Shown in pieces: positions 2,177-7,823 of a stretch of DNA of 64,000 nt. The stretch comes from Leptolyngbya sp. BL0902 (GTDB lineage Bacteria; Cyanobacteriota; Cyanobacteriia; Phormidesmidales; Phormidesmidaceae). The stretch lies in the NCBI RefSeq assembly GCF_016403105.1, contig NZ_CP046155.1:62001-126000 (forward strand), in the 5' to 3' direction. The stretch's first letter is position 1. Every line of letters begins with the position of its first letter. Made by a program: the position numbers and the translations under genes. The notes under the pieces were generated by a model. It did not search any database, was not told the origin of the DNA, and was given only the letters and a program-made list of their open reading frames with translations.

Positions 2177-2554
2177 CTATTCACCAGCGGCAGCATTGAG
2201 GTTAGCAATGGCCTCGTCCACCGAGGTCTGGAGGGACAGGAACTTCTCGAGACGGACTAGTTTCACGGTTTGGGTAACACGGGGATTGGTGACGACCTGC
2301 ACCGTGCCTCCTTCTCCGGTTGCTTTTTTTACCAGTTGCACAAGGGCACCAAGGCCGGAACTGTCCACAAAGTCGATGGCTCCGAGGTCGAGGATGATGT
2401 TGGCAGGGCCAGCCTCGACATACTTGGTCAACACCTTGCGGAAGGCAGGTTCCGAGAAGGCGTCGAGCTGTCCGATGAGGCGAAAGAGTTGATAGGTTCC
2501 CCTGACATCGCGGGTGCCTCGTAAACTTACGGTCAGGGTTAGAGATTCAGCGAT
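2177..2554 (-). CDS. STAS-domain anti-sigma factor antagonist, apparent ATC start
   Basis: A single STAS domain protein of 125 residues, the SpoIIAA-like switch family that binds anti-sigma factors or serine kinases. The phospho-acceptor region is VDSSGLGALV, followed by the VTNPRVTQTVKLVRLEKFL block typical of the cyanobacterial group. The first domain strand (TLTVSLRGTRDVRGTYQLFRL) lies upstream of every ATG, GTG or TTG in frame that would give a full domain; the nearest is a GTG at 2434, which would remove about 40 residues. The only start with a good ribosome site is ATC at 2554, with AGGAGG six bases before it. An ATC start is therefore inferred. A sequencing error is the main alternative. 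Confidence 0.85.
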   Translation of the reverse strand: MAESLTLTVSLRGTRDVRGTYQLFRLIGQLDAFSEPAFRKVLTKYVEAGPANIILDLGAIDFVDSSGLGALVQLVKKATGEGGTVQVVTNPRVTQTVKLVRLEKFLSLQTSVDEAIANLNAAAGE

Positions 2555-2560
2555 GGGAAA

Positions 2561-2566
2561 CCTCCT
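2561..2566 (-). promoter_or_regulatory. strong ribosome binding site for the STAS gene
   Basis: On the minus strand AGGAGG is followed after six bases (TTTCCC) by ATC GCT GAA. It is the site that points to the ATC codon at 2554 as the true start of the STAS protein. Confidence 0.7.
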
Positions 2567-2616
2567 GGGGTGCTCCGATTCGACAGTTAAATATAGGCTA
2601 GGATAGCCCGCTCTGC

Positions 2617-2653
2617 AAGGGGCGGTTCCCCTCCCTTCTGGGGCCGCCCCCTT
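2617..2653. terminator. GC-rich hairpin downstream of carA
   Basis: AAGGGGCGG...CCCC pairs with GGGG...CCGCCCCCTT around the loop TCCCTTCT, with small bulges. It lies about 70 bases past the carA stop, between carA and the STAS gene. There is no T-tract, so it may be a weak terminator or an attenuating hairpin. Confidence 0.4.
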
Positions 2654-5995: not shown

Positions 5996-7447
5996 CTAGA
6001 ACACCAACATCAGGTTAACCTGCCATTCCTGGCCTTGGCGGTGGATCTCAATGCGGCGGATAAATTCGCGAAAAAAGAAGCGGCGTTCGGCTTCGGAGAG
6101 ATCCAGCCAAAACTGGGGCAGGGCAACGGAGGGAGCCAGTTCCGCTAGGTTGACGGGGGGCAGTTGGGCGATTTGCTGTTCGATGTGGGTGATTTCGCCG
6201 CGCAGTTTGTAGCGGCGCAGGGCGGCGGTTTCAGCATCCAGCACCCCGGTTTCGACCAGGGCAGGGAGTTGGGCAAGGGCCGATTCTCGCTGTTGGCGTT
6301 GGGTTTGCAGTTGGGCGAAGGGATTGGGCGGTGGTGCTGAATTAGGATCGGCGCGGTGGGCCTGCCACTGGGCCACGGCCTGGGGTAGGGTGTGGCAAAT
6401 GTCGGCAATCACAGCCTGGAGGACCTGGTCGTAGGCAAGGGCGCGGCAGCGGGGTTGTTGGGGGCAGGCGGTGGGGCGCAGGTAGAGGTAGCTTTGGGCT
6501 TTGCCTCGGATGGTCGTCGTCGAAACCGTCATAGGACTGCCGCAGGTATGACACTGCACCAATCCAGCTAGGGAACGGGAGGCCCCAGCGGTGCGCGGAG
6601 GCAAAGGGCGATTACGGCGCAGCAGGCGATCAATTTGGGCGGCTTCGTCGCGGGAAATGATGGCGGCGTGGGTGTTGCGAATCACCTGACCGTCGCAGTA
6701 TTGCAGATCGCCCCGGTAGACGGGATGGCTGAGCCAGCGCTGCCCGGTAGAGACAGCAATCCGCTTGCCGAACCGTCTTTCCACAAAGCGCACCGCCCCC
6801 CGCAGGGAACCGTAGAGCAAAAATTCATTGACAAAGGCTGTAATCACCGGAGAGGCCGTGCGGTCGATTAAATACCGCTCCTGCCCCCGCCGATAGCCGT
6901 AGGGAGCCTTGCCCGGTGGCGGTAGCGCCTGGAGGCGATTCCGCGCATGGCCCGCCCGTTTTTGCCGTCGCTGCTGCTGATCCTGCATGGCGGCTATGGG
7001 GTCGAGGCCGTTGGCAAGGGCGGTTCCGGTGGCAAAAGCCATCGCGGGTTCCGCCCCGACTCGTACCGCAGTCCCGGCTTGAGCCAGGGCTTCTAGACAT
7101 TGCTGCACCGCTGCCGGACTATCGCCCAAGGCGGCCAAGGCATTGACCCACAGATAATCGGCGGGGGTGTGGTGATTGTCCGCCAAAAGCTGGGCTAGGT
7201 GGGGCCGATGGCTGGGGTTAGCGGCGATGGCCTGATCTTCGTAGACCTTCACCTCAATACTAGGGGTGTGGCCGTGACCACTGCCGTGACCGCTGCCATG
7301 AGGGGCGCTGTCATCGGCGTTGCCATCGGTGACACTGTCCAGGAGGTCAGCCTTCAGGCGTTCAACCACCTCAGCAGCGTCCAAGCGGCTGTCCGGTGAG
7401 CTGTCATCAGCTCCCGATTCACAATAGCGATAGACCACTAGACGCAC
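5996..7447 (-). CDS. large serine recombinase-like protein (XisF-like), divergent catalytic domain
   Basis: The middle matches the Recombinase domain (PYGYRRGQERYLID, VNEFLLYGSLRGAVRFVERRFGKR, WLSHPVYRGDLQY), followed by a zinc ribbon (CHTCGSPM at about residue 299, then CPQQPRC) and a coiled-coil C-terminus with FFFREFIRRIEI. This resembles cyanobacterial XisF-type site-specific recombinases. The N-terminal resolvase domain is hard to recognise: VRLVVYRYCESG stands where a YARVSS-type catalytic Ser motif is expected, and a His/Gly-rich insert follows. The GTG at 7447 places the first strand at the N-terminus and leaves four bases to the upstream gene; an ATG at 7507 would overlap it. No att sites or element boundaries were seen. 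Confidence 0.75.
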   Translation of the reverse strand: MRLVVYRYCESGADDSSPDSRLDAAEVVERLKADLLDSVTDGNADDSAPHGSGHGSGHGHTPSIEVKVYEDQAIAANPSHRPHLAQLLADNHHTPADYLWVNALAALGDSPAAVQQCLEALAQAGTAVRVGAEPAMAFATGTALANGLDPIAAMQDQQQRRQKRAGHARNRLQALPPPGKAPYGYRRGQERYLIDRTASPVITAFVNEFLLYGSLRGAVRFVERRFGKRIAVSTGQRWLSHPVYRGDLQYCDGQVIRNTHAAIISRDEAAQIDRLLRRNRPLPPRTAGASRSLAGLVQCHTCGSPMTVSTTTIRGKAQSYLYLRPTACPQQPRCRALAYDQVLQAVIADICHTLPQAVAQWQAHRADPNSAPPPNPFAQLQTQRQQRESALAQLPALVETGVLDAETAALRRYKLRGEITHIEQQIAQLPPVNLAELAPSVALPQFWLDLSEAERRFFFREFIRRIEIHRQGQEWQVNLMLVF

Positions 7448-7451
7448 AGAA

Positions 7452-7823
7452 CTAGAAAGCTTGCTTGAGGGCTTCCCGCAGGGCGAGCGCCTGATTGTTA
7501 TCGGCACTGGCTACAATCACCATCACCGTGGTGTAGTCTGCCCCATCAGGAGCTTCTATGCACACAAATACGGCGGTGGAATCATCGGACTGCCCCGCAA
7601 TGCTGATGGCATCCGTCTGTACCGGGTTCAAATCCTGGGACTCTAGGGCATTTTCTGCCTGACCAATGCACTGGTTCACATCGGTGGTCATGGCCTGCCA
7701 GGAGTAATAAATCCCCGGTGGGTCGGCCTGGGCAGCGGCAGCAGAGGCCAGCATCATGCCACCCGTAAGGCAGGCAGACAGAGGCTTCCAGAGCCAGGTT
7801 TTGATCCAACGTCCTTGATTCAT
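7452..7823 (-). CDS. small secreted protein of unknown function
   Basis: 123 residues with a clear Sec signal peptide (basic N-terminus, hydrophobic LSACLTGGMMLASAAAAQA, cleavage near AQA-DP). The mature part has two Cys (VNQCIGQ and VFVCIEA) that could form a disulfide, and a mixed alpha/beta composition. AGGAGG stands nine bases before the ATG. The gene lies immediately upstream of the recombinase-like gene and may share its transcript. It looks like a conserved cyanobacterial periplasmic protein, but no named family was recognised. Confidence 0.65.
   Translation of the reverse strand: MNQGRWIKTWLWKPLSACLTGGMMLASAAAAQADPPGIYYSWQAMTTDVNQCIGQAENALESQDLNPVQTDAISIAGQSDDSTAVFVCIEAPDGADYTTVMVIVASADNNQALALREALKQAF

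Follow-up and report, generated by a model that had tools for sequence, protein, structure and literature searches.

Gene Layout of the Locus

The window is the entire 64,000-nucleotide stretch of Leptolyngbya sp. BL0902 that was analyzed (contig NZ_CP046155.1, positions 62,001 to 126,000), and coordinates refer to it unless a contig is named. On its minus strand, carA (3915-2722; Pfam CPSase_sm_chain and GATase domains) is followed by a gene for a STAS-domain protein (2177..2554; 125 codons plus stop; Pfam STAS and TIGR00377), a probable ortholog of ssr1600, and then by a gene for a ribonuclease III-domain protein that is mini-III-like (2000-1344; Pfam PF00636, 6.4e-26). Of 80 named STAS loci, 68 have carA upstream in the same orientation (not found in 12), and 67 have the RNase III gene downstream, likewise in the same orientation (not found in 13). 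The minus strand of the window also carries an ORF with Ala/Val-rich repeats that is possibly spurious (339-1037), and an ORF (5996-7507) that, from its sequence features, we take to resemble a large serine recombinase.

The STAS gene ends in a TAG codon (ending at 2177) and lacks an ordinary start near its 5' end. The upstream in-frame stop is codon -55, and the 54 codons between this stop and an ATC at 2552..2554 (codon 0 in the numbering used here) include no ATG, GTG or TTG. The first usual in-frame start is a GTG at 2434, which is codon 40 and lies within the domain. A Shine-Dalgarno (SD) sequence, AGGAGG (2561..2566), precedes the ATC by 6 nt (tttccc), and in the window the ATC is the sole in-frame start of the STAS frame to have a strong SD. 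The initial annotation, which had singled out the ATC at 2554 on account of this AGGAGG, is accurate in these coordinates. Farther upstream are a probable -10 element, TATATT (2590..2595), which stands 35 nt before the ATC and is assigned from the enrichment of TATANT in orthologs, and a tentative and weak -35-like TTGCAG (2613..2618), which is read from the sequence alone and stands 17 nt before the -10.

The STAS Protein and Its Relation to Ssr1600

The window protein matches Pfam STAS (PF01740, E 1.9e-17) and TIGR00377 (ant_ant_sig; 62.2 bits, over the cut-off of 53.45), as well as the profiles of TM1442 (6.5e-13) and the SpoIIAA-type antagonists (3.2e-12). An AlphaFold model (mean pLDDT 83.9, 31 rows) includes a short strand at residues 2-4, strands at 10-17 and 20-29 and a helix at 34-47, numbered from the residue after the start. 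Initiation at the GTG of 2434 would cost the modeled protein 40 residues, including the second and third of these strands and part of the helix, which bears out the earlier statement that the domain needs residues encoded upstream of this codon. The further statement, which places the start of the domain two or three residues after the ATC, is correct for the conservation of the family, which starts at codons 1-2, and for strand 2-4, whereas the Pfam match begins only at residue 23. Since the first six residues hold only the short strand, a start at codon 6 is predicted to leave the main fold in place.

The Ser pair of the DSSGLG motif (positions 64/65) is invariant and position 29 nearly invariant in a 12-row alignment (A1), and the window protein has Gly at position 48. 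Residues L24, G43, S59 and S60 of the published Synechocystis Ssr1600 correspond to family positions 29, 48, 64 and 65 by one constant offset. Based on this published residue numbering, rather than on the Synechocystis sequence itself, the window protein is very probably an ortholog of Ssr1600, the anti-SigC antagonist, and a member of its family. The kinases associated with Ssr1600 are Slr1861 and PmgA; Ssr1600 binds the anti-sigma kinase Slr1861, so SigC is freed, and the Slr1861/Ssr1600 ratio is described as critical (PMC12329169). In suppressor lines with mere traces of Ssr1600, an rpoZ deletion strain grows again in high CO2, and overexpression of Ssr1600 slows growth in high CO2; thus, the dosage of the antagonist matters (PMC12329169). 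In the genome of the window organism, the RsbW-like ATPase family (PF13581) has 11 matches, five over the cut-off and three at or below 4.5e-15.

The start of Ssr1600 is taken as TTG in the 2025 paper, and the overexpression construct has an ATG placed at this supposed start (PMC12329169). The constant residue offset places the published TTG at codon 6, six codons downstream of the codon aligned with the ATC; an AUH start (AUU, AUC or AUA) goes unmentioned in the available portions of that paper (PMC12329169). Of five loci in genus g46 (3.7-4.0 Mb), three have TTG as codon 6, and all five have an ATT six codons upstream of codon 6, preceded by GGAGG or GGGG in an SD-like stretch.

Codon 0 in Related Genomes and Across the Class

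A search of 96 related genomes finds a STAS match in every one, of which one is weak (G031, 1.5e-4). The first-round set, from which the weak match is left out and to which G047 contributes two loci, comprises 96 loci from 95 genomes, and the aligned codon is ATH in all 96 (ATC 52, ATT 34 and ATA 10). The genus group of the window has ATC at codon 0 in 26/26 genomes. The two STAS gene copies of G047 (L028 and L033) each have an ATC start.

At the level of the phylum, an ortholog match of 1e-12 or better is present in 185 of 386 genomes. Among the matches listed, all genomes with the ortholog are of the Cyanobacteriia; the genomes listed without a match are of other classes except for one, and 181 further genomes are unmatched besides. 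The exception, G190 (f29 g65, Cyanobacteriia, 99% complete), has no STAS ortholog at 1e-12. The full ortholog set, which combines the first round with named genomes and further loci, includes 271 loci, of which 215 are distinct. Codon 0 is ATH in 211 of these 215 (ATT 130, ATC 68 and ATA 13), ATG in three and CTG in one; GTG and TTG are found in none of the 215. The proposal of ATC as the initiation codon is thereby supported, and the suggested check of relatives for ATG at the aligned codon yields only the three cases.

A degenerate DNA pattern, which is free of alignment, gives a similar picture in 388 Cyanobacteriia genomes: its ATH version is found in 273 and its NTG version in two, with no hit to a reversed-pattern control among the matches listed. 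The 113 remaining genomes fit neither version, and in those inspected the downstream part of the gene deviates from the pattern. Loci fetched singly from the pattern-unmatched groups are ATH, namely 8/8 in genus g194, two in f23 and 14/14 sampled in family f2, a family in which part of the genomes do fit the pattern.

Sequence Signals of a Start at Codon 0

A contiguous complement to the anti-SD of at least 6 nt is present upstream of codon 0 in 186/215 loci, mostly at a spacing of 5-6 nt, compared to 2/214 in a control region that lies about 100 nt farther up. The SD is weaker in genomes of the marine Synechococcus/Prochlorococcus type. In a set of 40 long ORFs from the window, the first ATG has an SD of at least 6 nt in one, and eight have such an SD at some usual start within the initial 40% of the frame, a comparison that is rough since the true starts of these ORFs are unassigned.

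Usable ordinary starts are lacking in many species. In 164/215 loci, the frame runs from the upstream in-frame stop to codon 0 without ATG, GTG or TTG. In 90 of these 164 loci, the first such codon comes at codon 20 or later, and in five only at codons 79-92. An in-frame stop lies within six codons upstream of codon 0 in 79/215 loci, and codon -4 is a TAG that overlaps the SD in 69/215. Upstream of the SD, no conserved codons are detected in the 215 loci, and downstream codon 2 specifies Glu or Asp in nearly all. A TTG or GTG is present at codons 4, 6, 8 or 10 in many loci.

A TATANT box is present between -85 and -25 in 156/215 loci, mostly 30-48 nt before codon 0, compared to a mean of 24 and a maximum of 36 in 200 mononucleotide shuffles, the significance of which is overstated as related rows are taken as independent. 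This -10-like box was located through its conservation; a sigma-70 consensus promoter scan of positions 2000-2900 of the window returns no site. Since the box is mostly 30-48 nt upstream, little transcript is left for an upstream start, and the leader that follows the box, in the 156 loci where it is present, would be roughly 25-40 nt. Single folds of three leader stretches give no signal of RNA structure (z 0.35, 0.01 and -1.60).

Evolution of Codon 0

Substitutions were counted on a quick FastTree tree of 194 in-register rows. At codon 0, the first position changes once, the second position not at all and the third base 17 times, compared to 47 third-base changes at codon 59, an internal Ile that is invariant. 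In the region ahead of the SD, each position of codons -8 to -5 undergoes 52-69 changes. Synonymous change is slow at other codons near the start as well as at codon 0. By parsimony, codon 0 has changed at least 20 times, with 17 changes within ATH and three to NTG (two to ATG and one to CTG); in one reconstruction, two of 19 third-base changes are to G and one further change leads to CTG. The NTG codons are confined to clades of one or two tips. Judged by this tree, ATG does arise at codon 0 but has not lasted, and the rarity of AUG at this position throughout the class suggests that weak initiation has been selected for.

The exceptions differ in the signals that accompany them. L118 and L119, from genomes of 2.7 and 2.9 Mb (L118 is named Chamaesiphon), have ATG without an SD and one gene copy each at 1e-8. 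L259 has ATG and retains a GGGAGG SD, and L219 has CTG behind AAGGAGG. The L259 case indicates that a weak codon is not indispensable everywhere. The notion that ATG occurs only where the SD is lost, as in L118 and L119, also fails at L259.

The third-base usage of codon 0 was considered as a means to discriminate a start from an internal Ile and fails in this role. Internal Ile codons of the same genes are ATT, ATC and ATA in 594, 329 and 78 instances, compared to 130, 68 and 13 at codon 0; the two resemble each other, and thus usage alone cannot tell a start from an internal Ile.

Alternative Readings of the Start

Translation of the STAS gene is, on these sequence features, very likely to begin at the ATH of codon 0, and the ATC at 2554 would be decoded by the initiator fMet-tRNA. 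A base error that turned ATG into ATC, which the initial annotation had named as a possible refutation, is refuted and has a negligible probability, as ATC is uniform in the genus group, ATH is class-wide and the genomes are many and separately sequenced. It is also improbable, although less extremely so, that an ordinary TTG or GTG at codons 4-10 is the true start, as was taken for Ssr1600, and that the ATH is untranslated. Such codons are indeed present in many loci and the fold model without its first six residues retains the main strands; however, the candidates lie about 17 nt or more past the SD, occupy conserved Leu/Val positions that are often not TTG or GTG, and are missing along with every other ATG, GTG or TTG from the upstream stop to codon 20 in 90/215 loci. 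An untranslated leader would also not be expected to keep Glu or Asp at codon 2 nearly throughout, nor to have changed just once, on the tree, at positions one and two of codon 0. Still less probable is a longer protein that begins upstream, at another unusual codon or by way of a frameshift, and in which the ATH encodes an internal Ile. The Ile reading at codon 0 applies to 98% of loci and its codon usage is like that of internal Ile, but the close in-frame stops (TAG at codon -4 among them), the unconserved codons upstream of the SD and the slow third base of codon 0 relative to Ile59 speak against this reading, and the -10-like box, where present, would permit only the short leader estimated above.

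A different question is whether the ATH start, once accepted, is regulatory. It may instead be an ancestral accident that became frozen, or a fixed low level of synthesis that is unresponsive to IF3, a reading that is less likely than not and yet retains a substantial share of the likelihood. Changes of codon 0 on the tree are few, as this reading would have it, and the AUU start of S. aureus cvfC1 provides a precedent in which output is low and the medium is without effect (PMC13009471). On the other side, ATG is one base away and would specify the same fMet, yet only three of the 215 loci have it, each time within a clade of no more than two tips. This rarity is more simply read as selection for a weak start than as a frozen accident, although IF3 level as a signal is not thereby established. 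Low translation is probably the selected effect, and the level of IF3 as its physiological input is a conjecture that falls somewhat short of an even chance.

IF3 Genes of the Window Organism and Its Relatives

A divergent type of IF3 is the sole IF3 found in the genome of the window organism, and its gene (L298; G000:C1:194807-196086) is intact, with an apparent ATT start behind GGAGG. An SD followed by ATT, ATC or ATA is seen in 20/20 sampled divergent infC loci (L298-L317), which serve as a positive control; the reading is by eye, and some loci have either an ATT-ATC pair that leaves the start ambiguous or a TTG that is in frame and overlaps the SD. The comparison with infC that had been made for the STAS gene is therefore apt, and extends to the organism's own IF3 gene. 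Divergent IF3 proteins score 132-161 bits against TIGR00168 in full-length matches, compared to 225-249 bits for the standard type. In the genus group of the window (26 genomes), the divergent type alone is found; the standard type is the only type found in many of the genomes searched. The 30 best-scoring standard infC loci (L268-L297) have no SD+ATH start and have ATG, GTG or TTG in frame nearby, mostly without an SD. Thus, IF3 autoregulation by such a start is not general in the class, and AUU autoregulation seems, from the sequences, to be absent in standard cyanobacterial infC. Control of the antagonist by IF3 generally, with autoregulation of IF3 in some lineages only, is plausible from the distribution of these starts.

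The motif GTCGA is found in 53/215 STAS leaders, compared to a mononucleotide-shuffle mean of 13.4, again with related rows taken as independent and the significance overstated. GTCGA(AT) is common to the STAS leader of the window (2540-2620) and the divergent-IF3 leaders of L298, L309, L310, L314 and L317. Its occurrence in both is unexplained and may mark a regulatory element that the two genes share or some feature of the transcription start.

Proposed Mechanism and Relation to Known Systems

In the mechanism proposed, AUU, AUC or AUA would be retained as a weak start against which IF3 discriminates, with the result that translation is throttled, and the strong SD would offset the weak codon enough for low synthesis. 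Low synthesis would hold an Ssr1600-type antagonist below its anti-sigma kinase (Slr1861 type) and thereby keep SigC from being released, leaving growth unrestricted by default. At IF3 levels that are low compared with ribosomes, more antagonist would be made, which would shift the balance toward the growth-limiting SigC state. As a whole, the combination of an ATC start, weak-start throttling of the antagonist and a link to IF3 is a likely explanation and the best one at hand.

The closest parallel is sigR of Streptomyces, which has a GTC start behind AGGAGGTG, is repressed by IF3 and through this start fixes the stoichiometry of a sigma/anti-sigma switch (Feeney et al. 2017, PMC5472188). The two genes share an unusual codon, a strong SD, a place in a sigma/anti-sigma switch and misannotation in genomes, and the infC of Streptomyces starts with ATC (PMC5472188). 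They differ in that sigR encodes the sigma factor itself and the STAS gene an anti-sigma antagonist (PMC5472188). Across 34 Streptomyces genomes the sigR start is GTC, or GTT in two of them, and the available portions of that paper give no evidence for it in other actinobacterial genera (PMC5472188), whereas ATH is class-wide here. In addition, repression by IF3 is demonstrated for sigR (PMC5472188), to which the STAS gene is likened from sequence.

The infC start is ATT in E. coli, ATC in Streptomyces (PMC5472188) and AUA in S. aureus (PMC13009471), and AUH codons are disfavored by IF3, as known from E. coli infC (PMC5472188). The STAS gene resembles infC in its codon class, SD and conservation, features that in E. 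coli form the basis of IF3 autoregulation (PMC5472188). Unlike infC, the STAS gene does not encode a translation factor, and thus direct self-feedback is not expected. An AUH start with an extended SD is likewise found in genes held low, such as ccpN (AUA) and cvfC1 (AUU) of S. aureus (PMC13009471) and pcnB (AUU) of E. coli, the latter known here from a reference title in the same paper (PMC13009471). In S. aureus reporters, ccpN and cvfC1 reach about 10% of AUG output in poor medium; ccpN rises to as much as about 30% in rich medium, and cvfC1 is unresponsive (PMC13009471). These genes are of other families and phyla, with a known conservation that spans the Staphylococci (cvfC1) or S. aureus and B. 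subtilis (ccpN) in the portions of the paper available (PMC13009471).

Reports of non-canonical starts in cyanobacteria include the proteogenomics of Nostoc 7120, in which eight revised genes have ATA or ATT starts (PMC8557916). The STAS gene may be present, unrecognized, in the supplementary list of that study (PMC8557916). The genes named in the available part of a comment on a Synechocystis deep-proteogenomics paper are others (PMC13339759), and genes that prefer non-AUG starts are treated in arXiv 2008.10758, as cited in PMC9845219. Among the open-licence PMC papers listed, none was found that reports ssr1600 or a relative of it to start with AUH. A non-canonical start under IF3 is of a known kind; what appears to be new is the gene in question and how deeply the start is conserved.

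A more speculative and rather unlikely extension is a small cyanobacterial AUH-start regulon that predates the radiation of the Cyanobacteriia, in which the availability of IF3 relative to ribosomes doses the Ssr1600-type antagonist and, in lineages such as that of the window organism, divergent IF3 as well. If this were true, translation-initiation status would feed directly into the SigC growth/carbon switch. More generally, an AUH start suggests a post-transcriptional input into that switch. A start at codon 0 would correct the N-terminus of Ssr1600, for which the published start implies a protein that is six residues short, and the overexpression construct with ATG at the TTG would bypass the natural start. 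Start predictors restricted to ATG, GTG and TTG likely misplace the start of the STAS gene in most cyanobacterial genomes.
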